Shown: positions 3,674 through 32,134 of the stretch, piece by piece
Numbering within the stretch: position 1 is the stretch's first letter
Layout: the number at the start of each line of letters is the position of its first letter
Assembly (NCBI GenBank): GCA_001798595.1
Contig: MGSS01000123.1
Span: forward strand, 1-43,362
Source of the DNA: Deltaproteobacteria bacterium RIFCSPLOWO2_12_FULL_60_19
GTDB taxonomy: Bacteria; Desulfobacterota; Binatia; UBA9968
Direction: 5' to 3'
DNA: 43,362 nt
Made by a program: the position numbers and the translations under genes
The notes under the pieces: generated by a model
Databases searched by the model: none
What the model was told of the DNA's origin: nothing
What the model saw: only the letters and a program-made list of their open reading frames with translations

Positions 3674-5347
<1,674 letters not shown>

Positions 5348-9711: not shown

Positions 9712-10608
9712 ATGAGTAGTCCTGTCATTGGATTCATCGGCCTCGGCATCATGGGCAAGCCGATGGCGCGCCATCTGTTGAAGGCGGGCTGTCCGCTCGT
9801 GATTCATAACCGCAGCCGCGCAGCGGTGGACGAGTTGGCCAAGGAGGGCGCTCAGGTTGCCGGAACTTCACAAGAGGTCGCCGCGCGGAGCGACATCGTG
9901 ATCACCATGCTGCCGGACTCACCCGATGTCGAGCTTGTCTACGCCGGCGAACAAGGGATCTTTGCCGGGGTCAAGCAAGGCACGCTGCTGATCGACATGT
10001 CAAGCATCTCACCGGTCGTCACGCGCAGGCTCACGCTTGAGGCTGAGAAACGCGGCTGCGACATGCTGGACGCGCCGGTAAGCGGCGGCGAAGCGGGCGC
10101 GATCAGCGCGTCGCTTTCGATCATGATCGGCGGCAAGGACGCGGCGGTCGAGCGCGCAATGCCGATTTTCCAGGCATTGGGGAAAAATATCGTCCACGTC
10201 GGCGACGCGGGCGCGGGGCAGGTCGCGAAGGCGGCAAACCAGATCGTCGTCGGAATCACCATCGCGGCCGTTAGCGAGGCATTGGTGCTCGCGAAGAAAG
10301 CCGGAGTCGATCCGGCCAAGGTGCGGCAGGTGCTGCTCGGCGGCTTCGCCCAGTCGAAAATCCTCGACGCGCACGGGCAAAAAATGCTGGAGCGCAATTT
10401 CAAGCCCGGCTTTCGCATCCGCCTGCATGAGAAGGACTTGAAGATCGCCCTGGCGACCGGAAGCGAATACGGCGTGCCGCTCTTTGTTACGGGCCTGGTC
10501 GCTCAGATGATGGCGGCGATGAAATCCACCGGCCGCGGCGATCTCGATCACTCCGGCCTGGTCACGTTCGTCGAAGAGATGGCGAAGATCGAGCTGGGCC
10601 GGCAATGA
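9712..10608 (+). CDS. garR: 2-hydroxy-3-oxopropionate reductase-type beta-hydroxyacid dehydrogenase
   Basis: The 298-residue protein belongs to the 3-hydroxyisobutyrate/6-phosphogluconate dehydrogenase-like family. It has the N-terminal nucleotide-binding loop GFIGLGIMGKPMA, the substrate-binding box DAPVSGGEAGA (Ser124) and the catalytic GAGQVAKAANQI helix (Lys173, Asn176). The GGEAGA wording and the HEKDLKIAL segment favour tartronate semialdehyde reductase (GarR/GlxR), which reduces 2-hydroxy-3-oxopropionate to glycerate; 3-hydroxyisobutyrate dehydrogenase is the close alternative. His32-Asn33-Arg34 after the second strand is the arrangement of NADP-using members. It follows the carbonic anhydrase by two bases and ends just before a strong hairpin. 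Confidence 0.85.
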   Translation: MSSPVIGFIGLGIMGKPMARHLLKAGCPLVIHNRSRAAVDELAKEGAQVAGTSQEVAARSDIVITMLPDSPDVELVYAGEQGIFAGVKQGTLLIDMSSISPVVTRRLTLEAEKRGCDMLDAPVSGGEAGAISASLSIMIGGKDAAVERAMPIFQALGKNIVHVGDAGAGQVAKAANQIVVGITIAAVSEALVLAKKAGVDPAKVRQVLLGGFAQSKILDAHGQKMLERNFKPGFRIRLHEKDLKIALATGSEYGVPLFVTGLVAQMMAAMKSTGRGDLDHSGLVTFVEEMAKIELGRQ

Positions 10609-12249: not shown

Positions 12250-13263
12250 TTAGTCCAGCCACATCAGCTTCGCCGGATTATCTTTGAGCATCACGCTCAC
12301 TTCATTCGGCTTGATCCCAAACCCCAGCAACGCGCGGATGAAGACGCGCATGCCGTCGATCGCGTTCATGTGGAGCACCTGGCCGAAGTCGCTGCCGATG
12401 ATGCAGCGGTCCGGGCCGATCGCTTTGATCGTCCGGATCGTCTCCATCGGATCGGCCACCGGCTGGTACAGACTCGGGATCATCGGCTGGCAATAAGTGC
12501 CGACGTAGACGCCGAGATCGCGGAGCTGCTTCATCTCGTCGAGGAGCAGCTTGTTGAGCTCCAATAATGGATGATCGAGCGTCGCCCGGACGCCGATCTC
12601 TTTGGCGAGCTTGGCCAGCGGCAGCAGCTCTTGAAAGTCGGTGTGGCCGAAGCCGATGCCGACCTTCTTCTCCACCGCCAGCTCCATGATCTCTTTCACT
12701 TCCGGCAGGACCTTGCCGTCTTCGGCGACCAGGCGCACGCCGCCTTTTTCCGGTTGGCCGGCGCCGCGCCAGAATCCGAGCGAAGTAAACGTCGGGAACC
12801 AGATCATCTTGAAATTAGGATACTGAAGCGCGACCCGAATATATTCCGGCCTCATCCCGTGGCACGTTCCCGCGCCGCCGTAAACCTCGACGCGGTTGGT
12901 CAGCTCCCCTTTCTCGATCAATGTATCGATGTGCTTCTGCGTCAAGTACGCGGCCGTGGCGCTGACGTTCCAATGATCCTTGAACGCGACCGCGCGCATG
13001 CCGCACTTCGACGCCTCGACGGCGATCTGAAGCATGTCCTGCGAGCGGTGAACGAAATCGGGGTAGGCGTGGATGTGGCAGTCGATCGCGCCTTTGAGCA
13101 GTTCGTTTTCTATTCCCGGATAGATCTTGAGCATCTCCGGATTATCTTTGAGCATCTGATAAAAATAATCTTTCGCGTTGAGCTGGCGCACCCGCTCCAA
13201 CGTCAAAGTGCGCCCCACCATCAACGCTTCCGCGGCCGCGGCATCGGCAGCAAAATCACACAT
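12250..13263 (-). CDS. Amidohydrolase-fold metal-dependent hydrolase (DUF6282-like)
   Basis: This 337-residue protein has the metal-site order of the amidohydrolase superfamily: DCHIHAYPD (His63, His65), FKDHW (Lys95, His97), GFGHTDF (His207), TLDHPL (His231) and IGSDFGQ (Asp292). The DCHIHAYPDFVHRS opening is like that of the DUF6282 group, which is uncharacterised. A strong GGAGGTGAGAG ribosome-binding site precedes the ATG. It is the last gene of the minus-strand cluster from 20.25 kb but is separated from the upstream LLM gene by 207 bases of tandem repeat. The reaction could be hydrolysis, lactone opening or decarboxylation; sequence alone does not decide. Confidence 0.75.
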   Translation of the reverse strand: MCDFAADAAAAEALMVGRTLTLERVRQLNAKDYFYQMLKDNPEMLKIYPGIENELLKGAIDCHIHAYPDFVHRSQDMLQIAVEASKCGMRAVAFKDHWNVSATAAYLTQKHIDTLIEKGELTNRVEVYGGAGTCHGMRPEYIRVALQYPNFKMIWFPTFTSLGFWRGAGQPEKGGVRLVAEDGKVLPEVKEIMELAVEKKVGIGFGHTDFQELLPLAKLAKEIGVRATLDHPLLELNKLLLDEMKQLRDLGVYVGTYCQPMIPSLYQPVADPMETIRTIKAIGPDRCIIGSDFGQVLHMNAIDGMRVFIRALLGFGIKPNEVSVMLKDNPAKLMWLD

Positions 13264-13287
13264 CTCTCACCTCCAAGACTCAGTTTG

Positions 13288-13422
13288 TTGGGTTCGTTGG
13301 GTTTTTTGGGTTTATTGGGTTCATTGCGTTAGTTGGGTTTAGTGAGTCCGTTGGGTTCATTGGGTTGATTGGGTTCGTTGGGTTCTTTGGGTTGATTGGG
13401 TTCGTTGGGTTCTTTGGGTTTA
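13288..13422. repeat. Tandem repeat, 15 units of 9 bp (ttgggttNN)
   Basis: Fifteen consecutive 9-base units begin at 13288. Most read ttgggtt plus two variable bases (cg, tt, ta, ca, ga, ct), with two degenerate units (ttgcgttag and gtgagtccg). The period is a multiple of three, and on the minus strand the array would read as Asn-Pro-X tripeptides, but no gene-like context supports translation. It lies between the LLM and amidohydrolase-fold genes. Confidence 0.9.
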
Positions 13423-13462
13423 ACTCAAGAAACTCAATGAACTCAAGAAACTCAACAAACTC
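13422..13462. repeat. Second 9-bp tandem repeat (aactcaaNN), about 4.5 units
   Basis: Units aactcaaga, aactcaatg, aactcaaga and aactcaaca, then a partial unit, follow immediately after the ttgggttNN array. The same period but a different word suggests a composite minisatellite whose two halves expanded separately, or a partly complementary second arm (aactcaa versus ttgggtt). Confidence 0.8.
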
Positions 13463-13470
13463 CCTATTGC

Positions 13471-14472
13471 CTAACTTTTTCCCCAAGCTTGAAGGAATCT
13501 TCGTGCGTCTTTGACCACCGGCTCCGTGACCGGGACGTAGGGAATGACGAGGCGGTTCGCGCCGGCCTCTTCAAACGGTTTAAGTTTTTCTTTAATTTCA
13601 CTGATCGAAGTCCCTGGGATTACAGGTAGCCTGTCCATGTAGGCATCGGTCAGCGCGCCCATCGCCGCTTTAAAGCCGCCCTGCTTGAAGGCATCCTGAA
13701 TCGCGTTGACCTCCGCCTCGAATCCCAGCCCTTTGAGCATGTCACTGTAGTGGTCGGCAAGGTTATAGAAGGTCAAAACCTGGCGGAGCTTCGAGCGCGC
13801 CAGCGTACGATCGGGATTCAACGAGACTCTGCATTTAGCGATGATCTCGACTTTGTTCGGATCGCGTCCCGCCTCCTTCGCCCCCTCGCGCACGCGCGCG
13901 GCGATCTCGCGAATCTTCGCCGGCGTCGCCATGTTGATGAACACGCCGTCGGCGATCTTTCCGACCAGCCTGGTCATCTGCGGCCCGAGGCCCGCCAGAT
14001 AGATCGGAAACTTCGGATGGCTCGGTTTCCACGATAACTGGAATCGCTTGCCCGTCTGGTAGATCTCGCCTTCGTATTCGACGCGCTCGCCCGCGGCGAC
14101 CTTGCGGACAATCTCGATATACTCGCGCGCGCGCTTGAGCGGACGGTCGAAAACGCCGCCGTGCCAGCCGGCGATGCTCTTGTTCGCCACGCCGAGGCCC
14201 AGCAGCAGGCGGCCGCCGGAGAGGTCTTGCAGCGTCGCCGATTGAATTCCAAGAGTCACCGGGCTGCGGCCATAGATGTGGTAGATCGCGGTGCCGAGCT
14301 TGATCGTTTTCGTCCGGCTCGCCGCGGCGGAGATCAACACCAGCGGATCGGTGCTGTTGGACTCCCCTTTCCAGTAGGCGCCGAAACCGACATCCTCGGC
14401 GATCTCGACCAGGCCGATAACGTCCGCCGCCGGGTAGTGCGCCGCCGAATTAATTTCTATGTCATAAACCAT
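13471..14472 (-). CDS. LLM-class (luciferase-like, probably F420-dependent) oxidoreductase
   Basis: The start at 14472 is chosen because GGAAGGGA lies before this ATG; a TTG eight codons upstream lacks a site. The 333-residue product is a bacterial-luciferase-like TIM barrel. It shows VIGLVEIAEDVGFGAYWKGE near the N-terminus, KLGTAIYHIYGRSP, LQDLSGGRLLLGLGV, then WHGGVFDRPLKRAREYIEIVRK and YLAGLGPQMTRLVGKIADG. This is the pattern of F420-dependent tetrahydromethanopterin-reductase-like members, although FMN use is possible. It is the paralogue of the LLM gene at 17034 and lies 27 bases after the nearer M24 gene. Probable role: reduction or oxidation of a pathway intermediate. Confidence 0.9.
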   Translation of the reverse strand: MVYDIEINSAAHYPAADVIGLVEIAEDVGFGAYWKGESNSTDPLVLISAAASRTKTIKLGTAIYHIYGRSPVTLGIQSATLQDLSGGRLLLGLGVANKSIAGWHGGVFDRPLKRAREYIEIVRKVAAGERVEYEGEIYQTGKRFQLSWKPSHPKFPIYLAGLGPQMTRLVGKIADGVFINMATPAKIREIAARVREGAKEAGRDPNKVEIIAKCRVSLNPDRTLARSKLRQVLTFYNLADHYSDMLKGLGFEAEVNAIQDAFKQGGFKAAMGALTDAYMDRLPVIPGTSISEIKEKLKPFEEAGANRLVIPYVPVTEPVVKDARRFLQAWGKS

Positions 14473-14499
14473 GCGCTGGTCCCTTCCAATTTTCAATGA

Positions 14500-15690
14500 C
14501 TATGCGACTGAGATCGCGCCATGCGCCCGCTTCGAAAGCAGCTCTCCGTCCTTTTCCGTCACCAGGACCGTTCCGCCCCATGTAAATCGAGTCTTACCGT
14601 CCGCGCCCGTCACCGTCGGCCGCCAGAGCCATAGCGTGTTTTTCTCGACGGTAAGTTCCTTCAGCGCGTCCGGCTGGGTCATCGCCCCGATGACCGGTCC
14701 GTCGTCTCCGGCGCCCCTCCCGACCAGGCGAACCTTCGCCTTCATCCCGCCTTTCTCGGCGACACTCTTGGAAAATTCGAGAAGTTCCGCGCACGATCTC
14801 CCCGGCGTCAACAACTTAACCCCCTCGTCGAAAATTTCCCGCTGCCTCGCAACAACGGGCTTCCATGCCTCCGGAATCGGCCCGAGCAAAACCGCCTGGT
14901 CCTCTTCGGCGATTTGCGTTCCGAAAACCGCGATCATTTCGGTCTGAGCGAGGCTGTTCGCTTTGAGTCTGCGCCCTAGTGGCGGATCGGTGAAGCGCTT
15001 GGCGTCCGAGCCGTCGCTCATTCCCAGAGTGAGCGCCCAGGGAAAATATTCCGCGCCCAACTCCAGCATACGCGCCATCACGCGAGCGTAAAGCGCCGCC
15101 GCGTCCACGCCGGACCGCGCCGCCGCCGCCAGCTCGGCGAGCCCCGCTTCGGCAATCTCCACCGCCTTGCGCATGGAGGCGATCTCCTCGGCGCTCTTGA
15201 TGTAGCGCGCGAAGCCGAGAATATCCGTTGCCTCCTCGAACCTGGCATTCGGCAACCGCCGCATCACGGCGGCGAACGCGCCGTGGTTGACCACTCCGTC
15301 GATCGACGTAACGTGGGAGACTCTGCCCCCCTTGAGTCCGGCGACACCGATGCGCGCGCGCTCCATCCCCAGCTCGAGCAACGCCTCGGCCATCGGCTCC
15401 GACCATTCGCGGCTGGTCTGCCACGGCTCGGGCGCCCAGGTGTTGCTCGAACTACGGTCTGCGATGATGATCGGCGGGCGGCCGTCGGTCGGGAGGACGA
15501 CGGAGGAGCAGCGAAGCTGCGTCAGATAGCGCGCGTCAATGCCGTCCCCGAGCGGAACGAAGATGCAGTCGAAGCCGGCCTTGGCGCCGCTTTCCCTCAC
15601 CGCTTTCCATCGGCGATCGCGCTCCTGCAGCGAATAGTTCGACCAAACATAAACAGTCGCGCCGGCTCTCGTCGGCGGTTTGTAAGCCAT
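14500..15690 (-). CDS. Creatinase/aminopeptidase-like M24 protein with degraded metal site (copy 1)
   Basis: The start at 15690 is fixed by GGAGG five bases upstream; a GTG four codons earlier lies inside that site. The 396-residue protein has the two-domain layout of M24B proteins: an N-terminal creatinase domain (YSLQERDRRWKAVRE to about residue 150) and a pita-bread C-terminal domain. The metal-ligand positions look lost: the usual HG-x-GH loop reads GRGAGDDGP without its histidine, and the last acidic box (E-D-T-V-L-V-T in Xaa-Pro peptidases) reads WGGTVLVT. It is therefore probably a metal-free creatinase-like C-N hydrolase or a non-catalytic partner. It is a paralogue of the gene immediately upstream. 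Confidence 0.82.
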   Translation of the reverse strand: MAYKPPTRAGATVYVWSNYSLQERDRRWKAVRESGAKAGFDCIFVPLGDGIDARYLTQLRCSSVVLPTDGRPPIIIADRSSSNTWAPEPWQTSREWSEPMAEALLELGMERARIGVAGLKGGRVSHVTSIDGVVNHGAFAAVMRRLPNARFEEATDILGFARYIKSAEEIASMRKAVEIAEAGLAELAAAARSGVDAAALYARVMARMLELGAEYFPWALTLGMSDGSDAKRFTDPPLGRRLKANSLAQTEMIAVFGTQIAEEDQAVLLGPIPEAWKPVVARQREIFDEGVKLLTPGRSCAELLEFSKSVAEKGGMKAKVRLVGRGAGDDGPVIGAMTQPDALKELTVEKNTLWLWRPTVTGADGKTRFTWGGTVLVTEKDGELLSKRAHGAISVA

Positions 15691-15705
15691 AAAAACCTCC
15701 ACTGA

Positions 15706-15772
15706 AGAATCCAGAAGTCAGTAGCTAGGAGCCAGAATCCGCTCCGCTCCCTCATTCTGAATTCTGGATTCT
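15706..15772. repeat. Inverted repeat with 11-bp arms between the two M24 genes
   Basis: agaatccagaa (15706-15716) and ttctggattct (15762-15772) are perfect complements around a 45-base spacer that itself carries imperfect copies of the same words. The region is probably a simple intergenic repeat. In mRNA it would form a long hairpin between the paralogues and could set their relative expression. Confidence 0.6.
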
Positions 15773-15785
15773 GAATTCTTCTGTT

Positions 15786-17000
15786 CTACTGAATCGAAAT
15801 CATCCCCGGCGTGCGCTTGACGAGCTGCACGGCGCCGGTTTTTGTGAGCACGACGCAGCCGCCCCAGCTGTATTGAACCTTCTCGTCGTCAGACATCGCA
15901 ATCGGCTTCCAGATGTAAACATTGCCCTCCTGCATGACGACTTCGCGCACGCGCTCGCCGCGGTCCTGCGGCGTGAGCAGCGGCCCGTCGTCGCCGTAGC
16001 CGCGCCCGTGCATGAGGATCAAGCTGTTCATGCCACGCGACTTTCCGAAGCTGTTGACCGAATCGATGAACTCGTGGTACACGATGCCGGGCTTGAGCCG
16101 CTCAAGTCCGGCGTAGAAAAGATCGCGCTGGAGATCGGCCACCCGCTGCCACGCCTCGGGGATCGGCCCGAGCATGAATCCCTGCTGCTCCTGCGCGATC
16201 ATCCCGCCCCACAGCGCGTCGACTTCGTTGTGAATCCGATACATCGGCTGAAGCGTGCGCCCCTCGGGCGGATCTTCGAAACGCGGTAGCCTCGCGGCAT
16301 CGAGCGGGCCGGTGTAAAGCGCCAGCGGATAATAGCCGCTCCCCAGCTCGAGCATCCGACGCATGACGCTCGTATAGAGATGCGCGTCGGTGACGCCCGG
16401 CCGCGCCACCCGGCCCATCTCTTCGATGCCCGCCGCCGCAATCGCGGCGCCGCGGCGCAGGCAGTCTATTTCTTCGCCGCTCTTTACGTACCGCGCGTAG
16501 GCTACGGCGTCATCGTCGTCTTCGAACCTGGCGTTCGGCAACCGGCGCAAAACCTCGGCGTAGGATGTGTGATTGACCACCCCCGCGTAGGCGCGCCCAT
16601 GTACCACTCGGCCGCGACTGAGGCCGGCCACGCCGATCCGCGCGCGCTCCATGCCGTATTCGATCAGCGCTTCGGCCATCGCCTCGCCCCACGAGCGCTT
16701 TACCCGGCGGAACTCGGGAAGCCAGTCGTTGCCCTGCTCTACGTCGCTGACAATAATCGGTTTGCGGCCATCGGTCGGCAGGATCACCGCGCCGTTCTCC
16801 AACAGCGTGAGATAGCGGCAGTCCGACCGCATGCCGCGCGCCTGCTCAAGCGACAGGTGTTGGTTCCGCCCGTCGACACAGAGCGGAACCAGAATGCAGT
16901 CGAAGCCCCGTTTGGCCGCCTGCTTCCTGACCGCCTCCCAACGGCGGTCGCGTTCCGCGAGAGAAAAACCTTTCCAAGTCGTATCCGCCGGCGCTTCCAT
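15786..17000 (-). CDS. Creatinase/aminopeptidase-like M24 protein (copy 2)
   Basis: The ATG at 17000 has AAGGAGG 6 bases before it; the upstream in-frame GTG would overlap that site. The protein of 404 residues aligns over its full length with copy 1 (FSLAERDRRWEAVRK; MERARIGVAGLSRGRV; GPIPEAWQRVADLQRD). Unlike copy 1 it keeps the histidine of the catalytic loop (MHGRGYGDDGPL), but the last glutamate box again reads SWGGCVVLT and the first aspartate pair is replaced by NEVDALWGGMIAQEQQG. Full dinuclear metal binding is therefore unlikely. With copy 1 it may form a heterodimer, as pita-bread enzymes usually dimerise. It lies between the two LLM genes in the same transcription unit. Confidence 0.85.
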   Translation of the reverse strand: MEAPADTTWKGFSLAERDRRWEAVRKQAAKRGFDCILVPLCVDGRNQHLSLEQARGMRSDCRYLTLLENGAVILPTDGRKPIIVSDVEQGNDWLPEFRRVKRSWGEAMAEALIEYGMERARIGVAGLSRGRVVHGRAYAGVVNHTSYAEVLRRLPNARFEDDDDAVAYARYVKSGEEIDCLRRGAAIAAAGIEEMGRVARPGVTDAHLYTSVMRRMLELGSGYYPLALYTGPLDAARLPRFEDPPEGRTLQPMYRIHNEVDALWGGMIAQEQQGFMLGPIPEAWQRVADLQRDLFYAGLERLKPGIVYHEFIDSVNSFGKSRGMNSLILMHGRGYGDDGPLLTPQDRGERVREVVMQEGNVYIWKPIAMSDDEKVQYSWGGCVVLTKTGAVQLVKRTPGMISIQ

Positions 17001-17033
17001 ATCGTCCTCCTTCACAGAGCGTTGAAAGCAGAG

Positions 17034-18017
17034 TTACCTCTTCTCCGCGAGTTTCAACCTCGGCTTCACTTCGTTTAGCAGCAATCGCATCTGCCCTGCA
17101 ACATCCGGCGAGATGACGCGCGCCACTACCGCCTTGAGCCCGGCGTCGACATACCCTTGTAGCTTGGCCGCGCAGTCTTCGGGAGTTCCGAAAAAAGGAT
17201 TCAGGTGGCGCAGCGCGGAGCGCGGCTGGTGGAAATACCGCTCCGCCAAGCTCCAGCCGTTTTCTTCCGCCTGCGCCGCGTTTGGATCGAGGCGAAAGGT
17301 GGCAAAGAGTGCGGAGGCAATCTTGCTGCCATCGCGCCCGACCTCGCGCGCGAAAGCGTCGATCTTTGTCCTGCGGCTGGCAAATTCCTCCAACGTGTGC
17401 GCCACAGTGAACCAACCGTCTCCCAGCCGCGCGACGCGCTTGAGAGCGTTGTCGTTGTCTCCCGCCGCGATCCATATCGGAATCGACTTCTGGATCGGCC
17501 TCGGCTGAATACCGATCTTCTGAAAGCGATAGTACTTCCCTTCGAAGGCAAAGTTCTCGCCCGCCCACAGCCGGCGCATGACTTGAATCGATTCGTTCAG
17601 CCGGCCCGCCCGTTCCTTGAAAGGCACTCCGCAGGCCTCGAACTCGATTTCCGCGTGCTTGTACTGCGGCGCAACGCTCACGCCGAAGAGAATGCGACCG
17701 GACGAGATGACATCCAAAGTGGCCAGAGAATGGGCCAGCAGGACCGGATTGCGCAGCGCGGCGATCAACGGCACGGCGCCGATTCCGACCTTGCTCGTCT
17801 TGGCCGCGAGCGCCGCCATGATCGTGAGACAGTCGGCGTGCGCCCGGTCGAGCAGCGACAGCCGCGGGCTGTCTCCCACCCAAAGATGATCGACCCCCGC
17901 CGCTTCAGCCTGTCGCGCTGCGCCCCAGAGCTCCTCTACTGCGCTCGGCCCGTGCTCTCCCCGCACCAGGTGACGCGTGTGCAGCAGCAGGCCGAATTCG
18001 ACGCTCCTTGCGGCCAT
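17034..18017 (-). CDS. LLM-class (luciferase-like, probably F420-dependent) oxidoreductase
   Basis: The chosen start is the ATG at 18017 (MAARSVEFGLLLHTRH), five bases after the stop of the beta-propeller gene; the frame stays open much further upstream, but that part is the antisense-like shadow of the propeller gene. The 327-residue product shows AARQAEAAGVDHLWVGDSP, KVGIGAVPLIAALRNP, LATLDVISSGRILFGVSV, RLNESIQVMRRLWAGENF and WIAAGDNDNALKRVARLGDGW. This is a typical luciferase-like barrel with the phosphate-binding region of F420/FMN enzymes. The C-terminus (FFGTPEDCAAKLQGYVDAGL) is also family-typical. Substrate unknown. Confidence 0.9.
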   Translation of the reverse strand: MAARSVEFGLLLHTRHLVRGEHGPSAVEELWGAARQAEAAGVDHLWVGDSPRLSLLDRAHADCLTIMAALAAKTSKVGIGAVPLIAALRNPVLLAHSLATLDVISSGRILFGVSVAPQYKHAEIEFEACGVPFKERAGRLNESIQVMRRLWAGENFAFEGKYYRFQKIGIQPRPIQKSIPIWIAAGDNDNALKRVARLGDGWFTVAHTLEEFASRRTKIDAFAREVGRDGSKIASALFATFRLDPNAAQAEENGWSLAERYFHQPRSALRHLNPFFGTPEDCAAKLQGYVDAGLKAVVARVISPDVAGQMRLLLNEVKPRLKLAEKR

Positions 18018-18022
18018 GCGTC

Positions 18023-19039
18023 CTAGCGATAGGCGACGCGGAGGCTGGTGACCTGAGGGATGCCGGCAACAATCTGGCAAAATGAATCGCCGCCGTCTTC
18101 GGTCAGCCACACGCCGCCGTCGGTCATGCCGAAAAGGAAGGTATCGGGCTCTTCCGCATCGCCGGCCACGGCGCGCGGCGCGGCCTTGAAATATTCCGGC
18201 AGGCCGCCCGAGAGCCGCTGCCAGGACTCCCCTTGATCGGCGCTGCGATAGAAGCCGGTGTCGGCGCCCTCGGGCCGGCGCCAGAACGGCGGCGGAACGG
18301 CGGCGGCAGCGGTGAGAAACACCTGCGGCCTCGAAGGATGGTAAGCGACCTGCGCCATGTAGCGGCGATCCAGACCCGCATCGCGCTTTGTAAAGTGGTC
18401 GCCTCCGTCCACGCTCTTGTAGAACCACTTGCCCGACGTGGCGATCACGACGGCGGGATTGTCCGGCATCACGGCGACCGAGTGAGAGTCGAACTCCGTC
18501 CCTTCCCTGATATTTTGCCAGCTCTTGCCGCCGTCCTTGCTGCGAACAATCCAGCCCTCCTCGACCGCGCCGAAAATCAGGTTCGGGTCCTGGGCGCACA
18601 ACGCCAGCCCCTTCACGTGGCTCACGTGCGGCGGCTGAGGGAAACTCCAGTCGATGGTTTCGGGTAGAGTTCGCAGCTGCTCGCAGTCGCTCCAGCTGTC
18701 TCCTCCGTCATCGCTCTTGAAGACCGACGAGGGTCCGGTGCCGAGCACCAGCTCTCCGGTCGTCGGATGCTGGACCAAAGACCACGCTTCCTTGTAGGTG
18801 ATGCCTTCGTTGATCTCGCACCAGGTCTGCCCGCGATCGTCGCTCAAAAAAACTCCGGCGCGGCTGGTCGCGGCGTAAATACGCCGCGGGTCCCGCCAGT
18901 CGATCACGACCGGCGATCTGAGCGCGCCCTTGCCCTGCAGGCCGACCGCGCGCGCCCGATAGCCGCCGTTATCCGGCACCGCCTGATACAATCCTTCCGC
19001 CGTCCCTATATAAAGGACGCGCTCTGAACCCGCTGTCAT
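18023..19039 (-). CDS. BNR/Asp-box beta-propeller protein (sialidase- or Ycf48-like)
   Basis: The 338-residue protein has at least six Asp-box motifs of the S-x-D-x-G-x-T/S-W type: SDDRGQTW, SDDGGDSW, SKDGGKSW, SVDGGDHF, SADQGESW and TEDGGDSF. Each is followed by a hydrophobic strand, so it should form a six- or seven-bladed propeller. There is no signal peptide (MTAGSERVLYIGTAEGLYQ), so it is cytoplasmic, which is unusual for a glycosidase; sialidase active-site arginines are not obvious. Similar proteins of the photosystem-II-assembly-factor or exo-alpha-sialidase annotation group are often scaffolds. A GAGGAGACCT ribosome-binding site precedes the ATG. It lies between a CoA-transferase and an LLM gene, with gaps of 27 and 5 bases. 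Confidence 0.85.
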   Translation of the reverse strand: MTAGSERVLYIGTAEGLYQAVPDNGGYRARAVGLQGKGALRSPVVIDWRDPRRIYAATSRAGVFLSDDRGQTWCEINEGITYKEAWSLVQHPTTGELVLGTGPSSVFKSDDGGDSWSDCEQLRTLPETIDWSFPQPPHVSHVKGLALCAQDPNLIFGAVEEGWIVRSKDGGKSWQNIREGTEFDSHSVAVMPDNPAVVIATSGKWFYKSVDGGDHFTKRDAGLDRRYMAQVAYHPSRPQVFLTAAAAVPPPFWRRPEGADTGFYRSADQGESWQRLSGGLPEYFKAAPRAVAGDAEEPDTFLFGMTDGGVWLTEDGGDSFCQIVAGIPQVTSLRVAYR

Positions 19040-19066
19040 AGGTCTCCTCTCTTTCCGCTTGCCCGA

Positions 19067-20251
19067 CTAGCCGACAACTCCCTGCTGCCGTAGCATACGC
19101 ATTTGCTCCGCACGGTAGCCGAGCTCCGCCAGAATCTGAGCGCTCTGTTCGCCGACGAGCGGCGGCGCTTTGGCGGCCGTGTAAGCCAAGCCCTCGTATC
19201 TTACACCCGAGGCGACAAGCCGCAACTTCCCGGCCTTGGGATGTTCGACCTCTTCGATCAATCCCTCGTGGCGCACCTGAGGGTCCGCCAGGACCCCGGC
19301 CATATCGTAAAGCGGCCCCGCGGGAACGTCGTTTTTCGCCAGCAGCTTCAACCACTTCTGGCGCGTTCTCCGGGCGAAAGCCGGCGCAAGCTCCGCTTCG
19401 AGCGCGGCGAAGTTTTCCCTCCGCTCGTCCCTAGTCTTGAATCTCGAATCTTCCGCAAGGTCAAGCCGGTCCACAGTCTTCAACAATGCTATCCAGAATT
19501 TTTCCGGCACTGAGCAGTGGATGACGAGCGGCAACCCGTCTTTCGCCGCAAACGCAAAGGCATGCGCGTTCTTCACGCGCGCGGCCCGGTCCGGCGTCTC
19601 TCCCGTGCGCAAGTATGCCGCGGCCGCCTCGCCGATAAAGGCGAGCGTGGAGCGTAAAAGGGACGTCTCGACCCGGCAACCCTGCTGCGTTTTTTGCCGC
19701 GCGAACAGCGCGCCCAAGATTCCGTAGCCGGCCGAGAGGCCGGTGACGTAGTCGGAGAGCGCGATGCCCATCAGCTTCGGCTTGTCCATGTCCGTCAGAA
19801 CGCTGAGCAGGCCGCTCATCGCCTGGCCCAGCGTGTCGAAGCCGGGGTTATTCGCATACGGCCCGCTTTGGCCGAAAGCGGAGATCGAGCAATAGATGAG
19901 TTTTTGGTTCAGCGCCCGCAGGCTCTCGTATCCGAGCCCCAACCGCTCGGCGACGCCGGGACGAAAATTTTCCACGAAGACATCCGCCTGCTTCACAAGC
20001 TTAAGGCAAATCTCTTTCCCCTGCGGGCTTTTGAGGTCCAAGGCCAAACTGCGCTTGCCGCGGTTTAAGTGAGCGAAGTGCGGGCTGAAGAACGGATCGG
20101 GAGCGAAGTAGCGGTACGGGTCGCCGTCGGGCGGGGCTTCGATCTTGATGACGCGCGCGCCGAGGTCCGCCAGCAGCGCCGTCGCATAGGGGCCGGTCAC
20201 AAACGTGCAGCACTCGACGACCGTGATCCCTTCCAGTGCCCCAACCGGCAT
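19067..20251 (-). CDS. CaiB/BaiF family (class III) CoA-transferase
   Basis: The product is 394 residues, the usual length, and has the family boxes in order: LEGITVVECCTFVTGPYA, LADLGARVIKIEAP with the following DPYR, NRGKRSLALDLKSPQG, VFVENFRPGV, SISAFGQSGPYANNPGFD (catalytic Asp139 in the GFD box) and GALFARQKTQQG. These enzymes move CoA between carboxylic acids through an aspartyl anhydride and activate catabolic substrates. It is the first gene of a co-directional cluster with a beta-propeller, two LLM oxidoreductases, two M24 proteins and an amidohydrolase-fold protein. That suggests that the cluster's substrate is activated as a CoA thioester or shuttled between acids. The GGGGGAA sequence before the ATG serves as ribosome-binding site. 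Confidence 0.93.
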   Translation of the reverse strand: MPVGALEGITVVECCTFVTGPYATALLADLGARVIKIEAPPDGDPYRYFAPDPFFSPHFAHLNRGKRSLALDLKSPQGKEICLKLVKQADVFVENFRPGVAERLGLGYESLRALNQKLIYCSISAFGQSGPYANNPGFDTLGQAMSGLLSVLTDMDKPKLMGIALSDYVTGLSAGYGILGALFARQKTQQGCRVETSLLRSTLAFIGEAAAAYLRTGETPDRAARVKNAHAFAFAAKDGLPLVIHCSVPEKFWIALLKTVDRLDLAEDSRFKTRDERRENFAALEAELAPAFARRTRQKWLKLLAKNDVPAGPLYDMAGVLADPQVRHEGLIEEVEHPKAGKLRLVASGVRYEGLAYTAAKAPPLVGEQSAQILAELGYRAEQMRMLRQQGVVG

Positions 20252-20815: not shown

Positions 20816-21003
20816 AGGCTGCTGAAAAAGTGGGATTCATGGTTCGACCCTTCGCCTTCGCTCAGGACAGGCTCCCTCGACTGCGCCTTTAGTCCCGAGC
20901 TTGTCGAGGGATCAGCACGAACAGAAAATCTCTAACGTTTTCAACCATCCCTTCGTTCGCCCTGAGCCCGTCGAAGGGTGGACGAAGGGTTTTTCAGCAG
21001 CCT
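20816..21003. mobile_element. MITE-like element with 14-bp terminal inverted repeats
   Basis: The 188-base element begins aggctgctgaaaaa and ends with the exact complement tttttcagcagcct. The interior carries cttcg/tcgaaggg-type palindromes (cgccctgagcccgtcgaaggg at about 20959-20979) and no coding frame. Terminal repeats reading AGGCTGCTGAAAAA are common on short non-autonomous elements in proteobacterial genomes. The flanks (ctaag and gctag) show no convincing target duplication. With the following palindrome it fills most of the 459-base gap between 20740 and 21198. Confidence 0.65.
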
Positions 21004-25639: not shown

Positions 25640-26533
25640 CTACCAGGTCGCGAATCCCATCGCGCAGCCGACGCCGTTCGGCGTCCGGTAGAGCGGCGCG
25701 TAGTCGATCATTCTGGCGGGCCGATTCGCAGCGGCTGCCGTCACGATCCAGTTGCGGATTTCAGACGTTCCTTCCACCAGAGTCGACGACTCCATCGCCT
25801 GGAGGAATTTCCGATCGTTGGCCTCCAGGGCTTTGATAAAATTCGCGTCGAGCGCTTCGTCGATCTTCGTGTGGCTCAAGCCGCCTGAGCCGACGACGAC
25901 CACACGCCGTTTCTCCGAAAAAGCCCCGATGGCCGAAGCGAGCGCCTTGCCGAACTCGACGCACCGTTTGGCCGACGGCGCGGGCGGATAGTAGGTGTTG
26001 ACCATGATCGGAACAACCGCCAGGCGCGCGTCGGGCGTAAGAAACTTGAGCACGCGGGCGAAGGCGTGGCCCAGACCGCCGTCGTAGCGCGTCTTTCTCG
26101 AATAGGCCGGGTCGAAGCCCGCGTCCATGAGACCGTCGATCAACGAGAGCGCAAGCGCGTCGTCAACTTTATAGCGCGCGCGGTTTTCCGTCCTCGATTG
26201 ATTGAGATATCTGAGGCTGGTGCTCGCCTCGACTTCTTTGCCCACGAAAATAGAAAACGGCGGCATGTTGTCGTCGAGGAGATTTTCGTGCTGGTCGTCG
26301 CCGACGACGATCAGCGTATCGGGCTTTTTCTCCGCGAGAATGTTGCCGAGCTTGCCGATCGCCGCCATGCAGCGGTTCCACTTCGCCCGCTTCGCTTCCA
26401 TCGTCTCTCGCTCAAGCTCGGGTCTGACCGGCAGCGGGTCCCAGCTCCGCGTGTTGAGCAGTCCCCACTGCTCCGGATCGAGCATCAACTGCGGCGCATG
26501 CGACATGGCCAGGCAACCCACGATCTCAGCCAT
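25640..26533 (-). CDS. LigB-type extradiol ring-cleavage dioxygenase (copy 1)
   Basis: The 297-residue protein belongs to the class III extradiol dioxygenase catalytic subunit family. His12 (SHAPQ) is at the position of the first iron ligand of LigB. A GDDQHENLLDDNMPPF segment follows, near the second ligand histidine, then GLGHAFARVL, PIMVNTYYPP, GSGGLSHTKID with the active-site histidine, and GTSEIRNW with the ligand glutamate. It cleaves a catecholic ring next to its hydroxyls using Fe(II) and oxygen. No LigA-like small subunit is adjacent, so it probably acts as a single-chain enzyme. GGAGGATTTTCT before the ATG is a strong ribosome-binding site. It is monocistronic and about half identical by eye, at the motifs, to the second copy at 28225. 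Confidence 0.88.
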   Translation of the reverse strand: MAEIVGCLAMSHAPQLMLDPEQWGLLNTRSWDPLPVRPELERETMEAKRAKWNRCMAAIGKLGNILAEKKPDTLIVVGDDQHENLLDDNMPPFSIFVGKEVEASTSLRYLNQSRTENRARYKVDDALALSLIDGLMDAGFDPAYSRKTRYDGGLGHAFARVLKFLTPDARLAVVPIMVNTYYPPAPSAKRCVEFGKALASAIGAFSEKRRVVVVGSGGLSHTKIDEALDANFIKALEANDRKFLQAMESSTLVEGTSEIRNWIVTAAAANRPARMIDYAPLYRTPNGVGCAMGFATW

Positions 26534-26635
26534 AGAAAATCCTCCAGCAATTCATTTACACCCGAATACTTTCCTCTTGTCAACGTTCGGTGCGCTGAGA
26601 TATAAGCATCGCTTGAAGGCGGAAGACGTGAAACT

Positions 26636-26662
26636 GTAGGGCGACCGGCCGGTCGCCCCTAC
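26636..26662. repeat. Palindrome gtagg-gcgaccgg/ccggtcgcccctac
   Basis: A near-perfect palindrome of about 13-base arms (one unpaired C) without a loop, immediately upstream of the RidA gene. The wording recalls dispersed gtaggggcg palindromes; the palindrome at 21076 is a probable relative. It could also act as a hairpin between the divergent LigB and RidA genes. Confidence 0.55.
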
Positions 26663-26684
26663 CGCACGAAAGGAACCTTAAATT

Positions 26685-27065
26685 ATGGCAAAGAGAACTG
26701 TGATCGAAATCCCCGGGCTGGCGCACGGCGTGCCGATCCCCAACGGGGCGAAAATCGGCAATGTGATTTTCTCCTCGGCCATTTCCGGCAAGAATACCGA
26801 AACCGGAAAACTGCCGCCCGATCCCGACGAGCAAGCGGAGGTGATGTTCCACAATCTTCGAAAGTTCATGGAGCTGGCGGGCGGCACGCCTGAAAACATC
26901 GGCAAGATGACCGTGTTTCTCCGGGACGAAAAATATCGCGATTCGATCAACAAGGCATGGCTCAAGATGTTTCCGGACGAACACAACCGCCCCGCCCGCC
27001 ATGCGGTGAAAGCCGATTTACGCGGCGAGGTGTTGTTTCAGATCGAAGTAATGGCGGTGTTGTAG
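26685..27065 (+). CDS. RidA/YjgF/UK114-family protein
   Basis: The 126-residue product has the family's full length and order: IPNGAKIGNVIFSSAISG, EQAEVMFHNLRKFMELAGGTPENIGKMTVFLRD, INKAWLKMFPDEHNRPARHAV and the end VLFQIEVMAVL. The arginine in RPARHAV is at the conserved substrate-binding position. RidA enzymes deaminate reactive enamines and imines; relatives in aromatic-degradation clusters hydrolyse aminomuconate-type intermediates. AAGGAACC precedes the ATG. It is divergent from the first LigB gene, with about 150 bases including a palindrome between, a context fitting a ring-cleavage pathway. A partial second copy lies exactly 700 bases downstream. Confidence 0.93.
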   Translation: MAKRTVIEIPGLAHGVPIPNGAKIGNVIFSSAISGKNTETGKLPPDPDEQAEVMFHNLRKFMELAGGTPENIGKMTVFLRDEKYRDSINKAWLKMFPDEHNRPARHAVKADLRGEVLFQIEVMAVL

Positions 27066-27087
27066 TCAGGGCACAACCAATCTCGTC

Positions 27088-27107
27088 ATGCCCGCGGAAG
27101 CGGGCAT
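27088..27107. repeat. REP-like palindrome atgcccgc-ggaa-gcgggcat
   Basis: Perfect 8-bp arms with a GGAA tetraloop lie 22 bases after the RidA stop; the flanks cgtc and cctg fit a common dispersed repeat. It may also serve as a terminator-like hairpin between the convergent RidA and antitoxin-like genes. Confidence 0.6.
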
Positions 27108-27134
27108 CCTGTTCGTGTCTACGAGATACACAGG

Positions 27135-27341
27135 CTAATCGCCGCGCCATTCCAAGGCTTTTTTTTGCAGCTCCAGGGAGGTGTACTGGTCGCGGAACTC
27201 CCGCAACGCTCCGGCCCAGTCTTGCCGCAATTTCCTGCCGTTTTTCCGCGTTCGTCTCTTATCGAGGGCCTCCACGAAAGTCTCTACCTCTTTCTTCAGG
27301 TCCGGAGGCAGATCTTTGACCCGTTCTTCAATGCTTTTCAT
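27135..27341 (-). CDS. DUF2281-like small antitoxin-type protein (68 aa)
   Basis: The start at 27341 is preceded by a G-rich site (gggggttctacc). The product begins KSIEERVKDLPPDLKKEVETFVEAL and ends SLELQKKALEWRGD. That arrangement, LP-x-x-L-(K/Q)-(K/Q)-EV-x-x-F-(V/I)-E-x-L followed by ELQKKALEW, is typical of DUF2281-type antitoxins that normally precede a PIN-domain toxin. No toxin gene follows on the minus strand; the RidA gene is convergent instead. It lies between the complete and truncated RidA copies. A chromosomal orphan antitoxin is the best reading. Confidence 0.62.
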   Translation of the reverse strand: MKSIEERVKDLPPDLKKEVETFVEALDKRRTRKNGRKLRQDWAGALREFRDQYTSLELQKKALEWRGD

Positions 27342-27570
27342 GGTAGAACCCCCTTGCCCGGCATGAGCGCATCATACCACCTCGCTATGACGAAGATACA
27401 CCAGACTGCCCGCCGCGTTCAACTCCGCCTTACGTGGCGAAATTCCGCCGCTTCGGAATTACAAAAACGTGAAAGTTGGCGCGTGAGGGTTTGAAGTCAA
27501 GATGCGAGCCGCGATCCTACCCGGTTCGCAAGATAGTCAAGATAGCAATGCCCGACCCCCGCAGGCCGTG

Positions 27571-27765
27571 GAGTTGGCGGGCGGCACGCCGGAAAATATC
27601 GGCAAGATGACCGTGTTTCTCCGGGACGAAAAGTACCGCGACTCGATCAACAAGGCATGGCTCAAGATGTCCCCCGACGAGCACAACCGCCCCGACCGCC
27701 ACGCGGTCAAAGCCGATCTAGGCGGCGAGGTGCTGTTTCAGATCGAAGTGATGGCGGTGCTGTAA
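27571..27765 (+). pseudogene. Truncated second copy of the RidA gene (3' half)
   Basis: From 27571 to its stop at 27765 the sequence matches 26871-27065 without gaps, at a constant offset of 700 bases. My hand count is 19 mismatches in 195 bases (about 90% identity). Most are in third codon positions; only three residues differ (Phe to Ser, Ala to Asp, Arg to Gly), and the reading frame is intact to the stop. The first half of RidA is absent: upstream of 27571 the sequence is unrelated. It is therefore a 3' remnant of a former paralogue or tandem duplicate that evolved under selection before it was truncated. An upstream in-frame ATG at 27502 could express a fused 87-residue protein, but half the fold would be missing. 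Confidence 0.8.
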
Positions 27766-27806
27766 CGCTTTGCTGCGTACCTGCCTCAAATCACGGTTTT
27801 TGTGGT

Positions 27807-27836
27807 CACGAGGTCCCGACGGGAATCGACCTCGTG
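27807..27836. repeat. Inverted repeat cacgaggtc/gacctcgtg
   Basis: Perfect 9-base arms around a 12-base loop that itself contains cccgacggg. It lies 41 bases after the RidA remnant and may terminate transcription from the left or be a dispersed palindrome. The rest of the gap (27837-28001) shows nothing I can support as a gene. Confidence 0.5.
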
Positions 27837-28001
27837 TTACCAAACTTTGGCGGAGGAGATCAGGAAAACCTTGAGATGGAGCGTGCAAGTGCCCAGCTAC
27901 AGCGAGACAGTCGATTTGCGGGGCATCTGGCAAGCACTTTAATGCAGGCGATAGACACCCAATACGGGAGGATTTGGGGTATGACTGCGGAAAGCTGACC
28001 G

Positions 28002-28217
28002 CTATTTATAGCTCCACTCGTAGTTCCTGTCCCGATAGGCCTCTTCCGGCATCAGGCTGGTGAGGTTGCGCTTCGCCATCTCCTCCTGAAACCTCAGGCG
28101 AATCTCGGCGGCCTCGTCGGGATACTCGATCTGGTCGCGCGCCCTGTCCTCCACTTTTTCGCTGATGCCGCTGAACCCGCGCGGCGGATGGATGGCGAGA
28201 TAGCGCGTCGGCGCGGG
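28002..28217 (-). pseudogene. Orphan C-terminal fragment of a bicupin gene
   Basis: Just downstream of the second LigB gene, in a different frame and without a start codon, the minus strand encodes about 70 residues with PAPTRYLAIHPPRG, then RARDQIEYPDEAAEIRLRFQEEM and a stop. The complete bicupin at 33898 ends in a similar way: APARYLAL, then GQIEYDDEDPRIHREFEAAV. The order and spacing agree, so this looks like the end of a lost paralogue of that cupin. It may still be translated by coupling from LigB, as no stop separates the frames, but no start is visible. Identification by eye on limited residues. Confidence 0.55.
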
Positions 28218-28224
28218 CTTCGGC

Positions 28225-29190
28225 CTAGCGCCACTGGGCGAAGGCCATGCCGCATCCCGTGCCCGCCGGAGCGCGGTAGGTCGTGATGTAATCGAGCAGC
28301 TCCATCTGAGCCGTCTCCATCGCGCCCGCCAGCGCGACCCAGTTAAGAATTTCCGAGGTGCCGCCGCGAAGCTTCGCGCGCGGCAAGGAGAAAAGTTTCT
28401 CGCGGTCTTTGCGCATCAGCCCTTCGATCGTTATCTGATCCAGCTCCTCGTCGATGATGACATGGCTCAAACCGCCCGAGGCGATCAGCACTACGCGCGC
28501 ATCCTGCTGCCATGACTCGATCCCGCGCCGCACCGCCTGCCCGAAGGCGTAGCAGCGCTTGGGCGTCGGCTGGTTGGGAGGATAGTAGGTGTTGACCATG
28601 ATCGGCAGCATCGGCACCGTCCCGCCGGGCCACAGACGCCGATAGAGAAAGCTGAAGGCGTGGCCGACGCCGATCTCGGCGCGCAGACGATTGCAGCGCG
28701 CGACGTCGAATTCCTCCGTCGTCAGCGCAGAGATCAGATGCTCCGCTAATTCCTTGCCGTTCGGGTATTCAGGGGCCGTCTCGGCCCAGCCCCGCTCCTC
28801 CGCGTCTTTCCAGCGTGCCGGGTTGCGCCCCGTGTGCTTGACCACGGGTAGCGACTTGCCGTGGTAGATCGCGAAGGTGGGCATATTGTCATCGTGGAAC
28901 TGCTCCTGCTGGTCGTCTCCGAAGATCACCACGAGGTCCGGCTTCGCCTGGCGCAACAGCTCGCCGACTCGGGCGATTCCCTTCTGGCAACCGTCGTAGC
29001 GCTCGCGCCATTTCTCCTGCGTCAAGTCCCTCTCGAGGTCGGGCTTGCGCTGCTTGACCGATTTCAGCAGGCCCGGGTAATCCAGGCGCGGATCGGTTTC
29101 GTCCTTTTCGCGCAACAGATTCCATTCTTTCCAGGAAATGCTCAACTGCGGGCTGTGCGACGTTCCGAGGCCCAAAACGATCTTCGCCAT
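28225..29190 (-). CDS. LigB-type extradiol ring-cleavage dioxygenase (copy 2)
   Basis: The ATG at 29190 with GGAG before it gives 321 residues; the frame extends far upstream but only as a shadow of the Rieske gene. Like copy 1 it has His12 (SHSPQ), IGVGHAFSFLYRRL, PIMVNTYYPP, SGGLSHVIID and GTSEILNW, and ends GTGCGMAFAQWR. The second-ligand region reads GDDQQEQFHDDNMPTF: where copy 1 has Asp-Gln-His-Glu, this copy has Asp-Gln-Gln-Glu, with a histidine four residues later. That may shift or weaken iron binding. It lies 195 bases downstream of a Rieske oxygenase gene in the same direction, so ring hydroxylation and cleavage are probably co-expressed. Substrate unknown. Confidence 0.88.
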   Translation of the reverse strand: MAKIVLGLGTSHSPQLSISWKEWNLLREKDETDPRLDYPGLLKSVKQRKPDLERDLTQEKWRERYDGCQKGIARVGELLRQAKPDLVVIFGDDQQEQFHDDNMPTFAIYHGKSLPVVKHTGRNPARWKDAEERGWAETAPEYPNGKELAEHLISALTTEEFDVARCNRLRAEIGVGHAFSFLYRRLWPGGTVPMLPIMVNTYYPPNQPTPKRCYAFGQAVRRGIESWQQDARVVLIASGGLSHVIIDEELDQITIEGLMRKDREKLFSLPRAKLRGGTSEILNWVALAGAMETAQMELLDYITTYRAPAGTGCGMAFAQWR

Positions 29191-29210
29191 AAAGTTCTCC
29201 GTTCGCCCGG

Positions 29211-29336
29211 CTATTTTTTGATAATTTCCTTGAGCAATTTCGCAACCTGCTCCTGGTTGCTCCGCTCGGGAGTGTCCATCAGGATATAGTGGAACCTCCC
29301 GGTAAGACAGATTTGTAGTCCGGTCGGGAAATAGAA
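29211..29336 (-). pseudogene. Orphan C-terminal tail of an unrecognised protein
   Basis: In the gap between the Rieske and LigB genes the minus strand is open for 41 codons after a TGA and ends TPERSNQEQVAKLLKEIIKK followed by TAG. The amphipathic, lysine-rich end looks like a genuine protein C-terminus, but no start with a ribosome-binding site is present and the rest is missing. I do not recognise the family. A 22-residue peptide from the internal ATG is possible but unlikely. Confidence 0.3.
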
Positions 29337-29384
29337 TCAAGAGATCGACGATCGAGCGGGCAAAGAGAAAATAGCGACACTCGC

Positions 29385-30581
29385 TTACCCGGCCTGGCGG
29401 TCGTGGTAAGAAGCGCTCCAGGTTTTGGTGTATTCCTCTCTCGCCTGGCCGCGCGAAACTTCGAAATGGACGCTCCGATTCTTCTCCGGATCGCGGATCA
29501 AGCCGAGCGGCTCGCCGCCGTCCAGCACGACTTTGATCTGCTCGCGCAGCATTTTCCGGTAGAGCGTGATCCCTCTGTCGGCGGCGCCGAGATTTTCCCG
29601 GCTGCGGTCGAACACGGCGCCCTGGGTTTCCCAGGCCATCATGTCCTGGCTGGCAAACGAGGTCATTTGATACTCGCCCTCCGGCGTCGTCAGTTGGGGA
29701 AGATATTCCACCGGCGGCCGCTCGGACTGCTCCGCCCGCTCGCCCTGTGCCGAGGGGCGAAAGGTCATCCATACGATGTAGGTATGCGTATCGTCGATCG
29801 GAGTCCGCCAGTGGATGACGAGGTCCGGCCCCTGCGGAGCATAGAGCATGTTGGGAAAAATCAGCGGGTGGCCGGCCTCGGTCTCCTTCTCGTTGGCGTC
29901 CGCATAAGTCCGTTTTTTCAGCACGCCCGCCCACAGCGGGCCTCTTACCTCTTCGAACTCCAATTTTTCGATCGGCCGGTAGTAGTAATCTCCGCCCGCC
30001 ATGCCGCGCGCCTTGAATTGGTGCGCGTGCAGAAAGTAGGTGTGGGTCGGGTCCACGGAGTTTTCCATCGCCTGGAGCCAGTTGCAATTATGCACCGGCA
30101 GCACGACGATTTTTCTAAAACCGTCCTCGCGCACCAGGAGATCCCAGCGGGGAAGCAGCGGCGCCGGGTTCGGCCCCATATAGGTAAACAGAAGCCCCGC
30201 CATCTCTTGAACCGGGTATGCCGTCTGGCAGACTTTCTCCTTGAAGCCGCTTCCCGCCGGCTCGAAGGGCTGCTCCAGACATTTTCCATGAACGTCGAAT
30301 TTCCATCCGTGATAGGGGCAGCGGATTCCGTCGTCCTCGACCGTTCCGTAGTACAACGACGTGGCGCGATGCGGGCAGTGCTCGCCGATCAAGCCGTATC
30401 TTCCCTGCGCGTCCCGGAACAGGACCAATTCTTCACCGAGAATTTTTAGTCTCTTCTTCGGCTTCTCCGGTGTAATCTCTTCGGCGGGACCGATCGGGTG
30501 CCAGTAGCGGCGCAGCAGAGAGCCCGCGGGCGTGTCCGGCCCGACACGGGTGAACATTGCATTTTCTTCTCGGCTCAGCAT
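29385..30581 (-). CDS. Rieske aromatic-ring oxygenase, phthalate-4,5-dioxygenase type (copy A)
   Basis: The 398-residue protein starts MLSREENAMFTRVGPDTPAG after a strong AAGGAGG site. The Rieske cluster ligands are Cys69, His71, Cys88 and His91 (EHCPHRA, RCPYHGW). The mononuclear iron site is in MENSVDPTHTYFLH (His180, His185, with bridging Asp177), and the third ligand is one of two aspartates in FDRSRENLGAADRG. Length and the YWHP/DDTHTY boxes fit the phthalate dioxygenase/vanillate demethylase branch. Such enzymes dihydroxylate, or demethylate, aromatic acids using electrons from a flavin-iron-sulfur reductase; none is nearby. It heads a unit with the second LigB gene and is the paralogue of the genes at 35062 and 42263. 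Confidence 0.93.
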   Translation of the reverse strand: MLSREENAMFTRVGPDTPAGSLLRRYWHPIGPAEEITPEKPKKRLKILGEELVLFRDAQGRYGLIGEHCPHRATSLYYGTVEDDGIRCPYHGWKFDVHGKCLEQPFEPAGSGFKEKVCQTAYPVQEMAGLLFTYMGPNPAPLLPRWDLLVREDGFRKIVVLPVHNCNWLQAMENSVDPTHTYFLHAHQFKARGMAGGDYYYRPIEKLEFEEVRGPLWAGVLKKRTYADANEKETEAGHPLIFPNMLYAPQGPDLVIHWRTPIDDTHTYIVWMTFRPSAQGERAEQSERPPVEYLPQLTTPEGEYQMTSFASQDMMAWETQGAVFDRSRENLGAADRGITLYRKMLREQIKVVLDGGEPLGLIRDPEKNRSVHFEVSRGQAREEYTKTWSASYHDRQAG

Positions 30582-32091: not shown

Positions 32092-32134
32092 AGCGTAATT
32101 TCCCTTATGATGGTTAGTGGCCAAACGCCGGATG

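Follow-up and report, generated by a model that had tools for sequence, protein, structure and literature searches.

Contig MGSS01000123.1 of Deltaproteobacteria bacterium RIFCSPLOWO2_12_FULL_60_19 (43,362 nucleotides, hereafter the window) carries a cluster of seven genes at 12250-20251, which is a composite. A conserved core of CaiB, LLM2, and DUF6282 is split by a lineage-specific cassette of four genes (BNR-LLM1-M24a-M24b). An earlier, sequence-only reading had described the seven as one unassigned cluster; that observation is real but mis-bounded, and the object of interest is the LLM2-DUF6282 core. Our preferred reading, to which we give a probability of roughly one half, is that CaiB-LLM2-DUF6282, together with a major facilitator superfamily (MFS) carrier, is the form taken in Binatia by a catabolic module that crosses phyla and would combine F420-linked redox chemistry, hydrolysis, and CoA-dependent C5-type catabolism.

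The host metagenome-assembled genome (MAG; G000, in which the window is contig C123) belongs to Candidatus Binatia, measures 4.19 Mb, and is 97% complete. All seven open reading frames (ORFs) lie on the minus strand, and with likely starts the gaps between them are exactly the 27, 5, 33, 95, 27, and 207 bases given by the sequence-only reading. Pfam confirmed the enzyme class it had named for each gene, and the 207-base gap contains the repeat it had seen there. The features are as follows.

19067-20251, minus strand: CaiB/BaiF family III CoA-transferase (CaiB), 394 amino acids, start of the core; PF02515 (CoA_transf_3), 383.5 bits
18023-19039, minus strand: BNR/sortilin-type beta-propeller (BNR), 338 amino acids, insert gene 1; PF15902/PF02012
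17034-18017, minus strand: luciferase-like oxidoreductase LLM1, 327 amino acids, insert gene 2; PF00296, 184 bits
15786-17000, minus strand: M24a, pita-bread (creatinase/aminopeptidase) fold, 404 amino acids, insert gene 3; PF00557, 33.8 bits
14500-15690, minus strand: M24b, second pita-bread protein, 396 amino acids, insert gene 4; PF00557, 39.4 bits
13471-14472, minus strand: LLM2, Mer-like luciferase-like oxidoreductase, 333 amino acids, core; PF00296, 236 bits
13264-13470, minus strand: intergenic degenerate 9/27-bp repeat that can fold back; Tandem Repeats Finder, 13283-13462
12250-13263, minus strand: DUF6282, predicted amidohydrolase-superfamily TIM barrel, 337 amino acids, core; PF19799, 127.7 bits
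10817-12088, minus strand: MFS transporter, lactate or oxalate/formate antiporter type; PF07690, and NF049980 at 151 bits, below its cut-off

Gene order was compared among 35 genomes of the order, and M24a was searched in 58 relatives, including 23 further genomes of the class. In the conserved-neighborhood analysis that the sequence-only reading had proposed as its check, the whole order recurs in a second genus, in a single other genome (G016), with protein identities of 69-90%: DUF6282 90%, LLM2 88%, M24a 81%, BNR 75%, and CaiB, LLM1, and M24b about 70%. Given this recurrence, the gene order exceeds chance. That the seven genes form one pathway unit, as had been supposed, is nevertheless not supported; only CaiB-LLM2-DUF6282 is conserved, and parts of the insert also occur alone. 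In 11 Binatia loci (L068, L069, L071-L075, L081, L083, L117, and L124), LLM2-DUF6282 comes immediately after CaiB. Elsewhere the slot between CaiB and LLM2 holds an HtrA-like protease and an FHA protein (L076, L084, and L121) or HtrA-like, BNR, and binding proteins (L085), and BNR-LLM1-M24a-M24b fills it only in the window and G016. The varied contents indicate that the slot is variable and that the four-gene cassette is one filling. The adjacent M24a-M24b pair is present in eight genomes, all of one family within the order, and in four of these (G001, G015, G020, and G024) its contig lacks the other five genes; in G001 and G024 its surroundings are alcohol dehydrogenase and MFS genes, or a binding protein. 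In the 23 further genomes of the class, which lie outside the order, M24a matched nothing strongly, and a search of genome contigs with M24a as the query gave no match. Close orthologs of BNR (68-74%) were found only in G016, G020, and G024, on a background of many paralogs per genome at about 30%, and BNR adjoins LLM1 in G016 and G024 (L086) as well.

The core extends far beyond the order. Named genomes were scanned with an alignment of DUF6282, which yielded 42 loci, including Acidobacteria, Chloroflexi, one Micropepsaceae, and one betaproteobacterial MAG; the closest named relatives carrying the core are Candidatus Binatia and 'Deltaproteobacteria' MAGs. When these loci were pooled with those of Binatia, duplicates removed, and only loci kept where adjacency could be judged, LLM2 adjoined DUF6282 in 41 of 42 (Binatia, Acidobacteria, Chloroflexi, and Alphaproteobacteria). 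Among the Chloroflexi, LLM2 lies on the other strand in L118, and in L122 it comes after DUF6282 instead of before it. In L101, the sole exception, DUF6282 is surrounded by hydrolase, AMP-ligase, and acyl-CoA dehydrogenase genes. DUF6282 is present in 30 of the 35 genomes of the order, mostly as a single copy at 80-90% identity, and it evolves very slowly, with 71-90% identity between phyla. Its tree mostly tracks the phyla given by submitters; two proteobacterial sequences fall inside Acidobacteria, which suggests transfer between phyla, although bin contamination is possible. A DUF6282 paralog with 29% identity (L149:2694-4808) likewise adjoins an LLM protein, so the partnership may predate this core. 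Stops or frame changes break DUF6282 in L084 (1667-2677) and L082 (4034-5043) and CaiB in L076 (4853-6000), which in these single MAGs reflects either decay or assembly error.

The core's CaiB begins the conserved order in Binatia family f1, where most genomes have an ortholog (66-74%) directly upstream of either LLM2-DUF6282 or inserts. It is a member of the CaiB/BaiF family, its closest solved relatives are formyl-CoA transferase and succinate-hydroxymethylglutarate CoA-transferase, and its catalytic Asp is kept, aligned with that of formyl-CoA transferase. Family f3 has the order CoxL-MFS-MaoC-LLM2-DUF6282-IlvD, and in most of that family IlvD is directly behind DUF6282. The window has an IlvD-type dihydroxy-acid dehydratase at 3674-5347, over the TIGR00110 cut-off; such genes lie near LLM2-DUF6282 in 7 of 25 loci and in 0 of 40 background stretches. 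The MFS gene comes after DUF6282 on the same strand in the window and adjoins LLM2-DUF6282 in ten further loci (L070, L072, L074, L075, L077, L078, L080, and L126-L128). Scans of the cluster for sigma-70 promoters and terminators gave no excess over shuffled sequence.

DUF6282 scores well above the PF19799 gathering threshold of 26.8. An AlphaFold2 model (predicted local distance difference test, pLDDT, 72; residues 1-33 poorly predicted) matches TatD, a phosphotriesterase homolog, and COG3618 amidohydrolases with Z scores of 17-19 over 230-245 residues and a root-mean-square deviation of 3.0-3.6; comparison with PDB sequences gave nothing usable. Across 14 sequences from several phyla, five residues (H63, H65, H207, H231, and D292) never vary, and these HxH, His, His, and Asp positions fall at the ends of predicted strands 1, 5, 6, and 8, as they do in amidohydrolases. 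The model thus presents DUF6282 as a metal-type amidohydrolase-superfamily barrel. The end of strand 2 carries an invariant lysine (K95), whereas a bridging carboxylated lysine would be expected on strand 4; a mono- or other metal center is possible.

LLM2 has a Bac_luciferase TIM-barrel domain (PF00296 cut-off 27.9), and its best solved relatives are F420-dependent methylene-tetrahydromethanopterin reductases (Mer; E values from 6e-40 to 2e-27), well ahead of members that use flavin mononucleotide (FMN). The F420 ligase CofE (TIGR01916) was found over cut-off in G000 and in 12 of 12 Binatia tested. It is present in 12 of 15 carriers from other phyla, compared with 16 of 115 and 44 of 121 genomes in the classes of two carriers; in the second class all eight carriers have it against the 44 of 121 (Fisher p = 2e-4, not corrected for relatedness). 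LLM2 is therefore probably F420-dependent, a view that the CofE distribution supports and does not prove. Mer, Adf, and Fgd, the known F420-dependent hydride transferases (PMC8498797), belong to the same family as LLM1 and LLM2, whose nearest solved structures are those of Mer/Fgd. However, LLM2 falls below the cut-offs for named equivalogs, and LLM1 just passes only the broad TIGR03619 (167.9 bits, cut-off 166.9). Mer and Fgd serve C1 or sugar-phosphate metabolism, whereas LLM2 is linked to an amidohydrolase and CoA enzymes.

Outside Binatia the CoA half of the module shares an operon with the LLM2-DUF6282 pair, in the common order GctA-GctB-LLM2-DUF6282-acyl-CoA dehydrogenase-CitE-MaoC-CaiB (Acidobacteria, Micropepsaceae, and in part Chloroflexi). 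The CoA-transferase alpha/beta pair is near glutaconate CoA-transferase 1POI and keeps the catalytic Glu in its beta subunit; the CitE-like lyase is near TIGR01588 and RipC/Ccl, and MaoC near RipB/Ich and mesaconyl-CoA hydratase, with the NCBIfam scores of all of these below curated cut-offs. When 25 core loci from several phyla were compared with 40 spaced 20-kb stretches of Binatia, LLM2 (p = 2e-13), CaiB (p = 8e-5), and CitE and MaoC (p = 2e-4) were enriched near DUF6282, as was the CoA-transferase. In Binatia the second half forms a separate locus, CaiB'-MaoC-acyl-CoA dehydrogenase-CitE, whose MaoC is 85-93% identical. In G028 and G033, both near-complete, 24-31 kb separate the CitE of this locus from DUF6282, and elsewhere it is on other contigs; in G000 the orthologs of MaoC (87%) and CitE (62%) are on C155 and C80. 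Nearly all Binatia lack the alpha gene of the CoA-transferase, and there the CaiB of the core may replace the pair. Three other candidate partners were set aside. A Mo-hydroxylase (CoxSML), which would point to N-heterocycles, was near 7 of 25 core loci and in 5 of 40 background stretches (p = 0.11), no excess over background. NMT1/TauT-type binding proteins were at background level (4 of 25 and 8 of 40), and a beta-hydroxyacid dehydrogenase (9712-10608), a possible sign of a nicotinate-type route, was near the core in just three related loci and was not used.

The analysis shows which genes are present, how they are ordered and conserved, their predicted folds, and the state of key residues; the reaction order, cofactor use, and substrate class of the route that we propose are inferred. 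LLM2 would most likely reduce or dehydrogenate a cyclic or carbonyl substrate by F420-linked hydride transfer. Metal-dependent hydrolysis or decarboxylation of the product by DUF6282 would give a carboxylic acid, probably a C5-type dicarboxylic acid, to be activated by a CoA-transferase (CaiB in Binatia, a GctAB-like pair and another CaiB elsewhere). The CoA ester would then be dehydrogenated by the acyl-CoA dehydrogenase, hydrated by MaoC, and cleaved by the CitE-type lyase, the last half of the route being encoded at the second locus in Binatia. The sequence-only reading had offered an outline of amide or C-N cleavage, redox steps, and CoA transfer. Taken as hydrolysis, redox, and CoA transfer, it fits this wider catabolic context, but not for all seven genes as one unit; a C-N or amide substrate is possible, and nothing in the analysis points to the guanidino compounds it had suggested as substrates. 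More tentatively, LLM2-DUF6282 might be the diagnostic step of an undescribed F420-dependent degradation route (redox at a ring or carbonyl, hydrolytic opening, CoA-dependent C5 cleavage) for a common soil or groundwater compound, common to Binatota, Acidobacteriota, Chloroflexota, and some Proteobacteria, with the insert adding a new, metal-free pair of pita-bread enzymes that act on a related substrate.

Several points weigh against the module proposal. LLM2 is below every NCBIfam cut-off (the best, TIGR04024, at 200.5 against 345.4), so that use of F420 is suggested by likeness only and FMN is possible. The CofE comparison ignores relatedness, and three carriers are without a CofE match; the MAGs are incomplete, and one of the three, L101, also lacks LLM2 beside DUF6282. 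The enrichment sets loci from several phyla against a background from Binatia only. Finally, the second half is usually unlinked to the core in Binatia, so that the case for joint function there comes from the other phyla.

One alternative takes LLM2 as an FMN monooxygenase, for example of Baeyer-Villiger type, and DUF6282 as a lactonase that opens its product before CoA transfer. A Baeyer-Villiger-type role has been proposed for FMN monooxygenases of SAR202, whose genomes pair expanded FMN/F420 monooxygenases with CaiB/BaiF (PMC5395668), and lactonases and a probable pyrone-dicarboxylate hydrolase are also among the matches of the DUF6282 model. We consider this unlikely; diketocamphane monooxygenase is absent among the matches of LLM2, whose closest solved relatives are F420-dependent reductases, and the F420 ligase is commoner in carriers than in their classes. 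Alternatively, LLM2-DUF6282 could be a near-housekeeping module for cofactor recycling, repair, or detoxification rather than part of a growth pathway. Its near-universal, mostly single-copy occurrence in the order, its very slow evolution between phyla, and its frequent position near ilvD speak for such a role. Yet the core is patchy outside the order, a transporter gene is often beside it, and it stands among genes for CoA-transferase, acyl-CoA dehydrogenase, hydratase, and lyase of the kind usual in catabolism, which makes a housekeeping role improbable.

The M24 pair was called creatinase-like by the sequence-only reading, which holds for the fold but not for the metal site. M24a and M24b are 48% identical, with PF00557 scores that are weak but above the cut-off of 23. 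The M24a model (pLDDT 64) matches creatinase, prolidase, and methionine aminopeptidase (Foldseek E values from 1e-17 to 1e-13), including the creatinase-type structures 1kp0 and 1chm. M24 peptidases carry five metal ligands (D, D, H, E, and E in methionine aminopeptidase); in M24a these are E264, Q275, R338, K370, and G385, by alignment to methionine aminopeptidase and by profile alike (numbered from the GTG-start ORF at 17015). The site is likewise lost in M24b, and none of the five ligands is restored in any of 12 homologs (alignment A1), which instead share a new invariant GxGxGDDGP-type motif. Because all five ligands are replaced, M24a and M24b, as judged from their residues, cannot be ordinary M24 metallopeptidases, and they are best regarded as putative enzymes. 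The pita-bread fold is common to creatinase, ectoine hydrolase DoeA, and M24 aminopeptidases; scores against DoeA (TIGR02993) were 23 and 31 bits, compared with a cut-off of 613. A different M24 protein (cluster C9, e.g., L074:5105-6352) is found just upstream of CaiB in L069, L071, L074, L076, and L124, in Binatia without the window's M24 pair; by eye it keeps H-E-E and not the two Asp ligands. That the M24 proteins cleave a C-N bond and pass a single substrate to LLM and DUF6282 and then to CaiB for CoA transfer, in one seven-gene pathway, is very unlikely despite the short gaps, the full order kept in G016 at 69-90% identity, and the C9 protein upstream of CaiB, since most relatives have the core without BNR, LLM1, and the M24 pair, the pair occurs without the others in four genomes, and its metal site is lost.

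As the sequence-only reading had supposed, the gene set matches no named pathway. Among the closest parallels are the C5-dicarboxylate routes (itaconate Rip/Ict-Ich-Ccl, mesaconate, GctAB), which resemble the module in MaoC, CitE, and the CoA-transferase pair; the module differs in its LLM2, DUF6282, and acyl-CoA dehydrogenase, and in NCBIfam scores below curated cut-offs. SAR202 bacteria, uncultured degraders of recalcitrant carbon, combine LLM-family enzymes with CaiB/BaiF as here (PMC5395668). That link is one of family expansion and not of a fixed operon; the text of that paper mentions neither amidohydrolase nor creatinase and does not describe the LLM2-DUF6282 operon. A survey of Binatota (PMC8262859) mentions none of F420, luciferase-like enzymes, and CaiB, and our literature search found no paper that mentions DUF6282.

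The repeat at 13264-13470 folds with an RNA z score of -2.2. Similar low-complexity fold-backs lie in the gap at 15691-15785 of the window and in gaps of relatives (L068:4690-4839, L072:8639-8753, L073:8539-8657, and L083:2900-3036; z about -2 to -3.6), and those at the same place in different Binatia genomes are unrelated in sequence. In general, these genomes hold about five times as many exact-armed fold-backs as shuffled DNA (38 and 7 in 800 kb), which looks like a genome-wide habit; a further one, whose exact arms span at least 13 bases, lies upstream of CaiB at 20816-21003. The window also contains a second catabolic block at 25640-43360, with a LigB-type dioxygenase, three Rieske oxygenase genes, two ABC transporter sets, a cupin, and a class II aldolase.

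The mosaic nature of what appeared to be a seven-gene pathway changes what should go into substrate tests. A 2021 review noted that the role of F420 in bacteria outside Actinobacteria had not yet been examined in any experimental study (PMC8498797). LLM2-DUF6282, almost inseparable, tracking CofE, and set in a recognizable CoA pathway, offers a concrete, testable way into that role, and work on it would give the first function for DUF6282.

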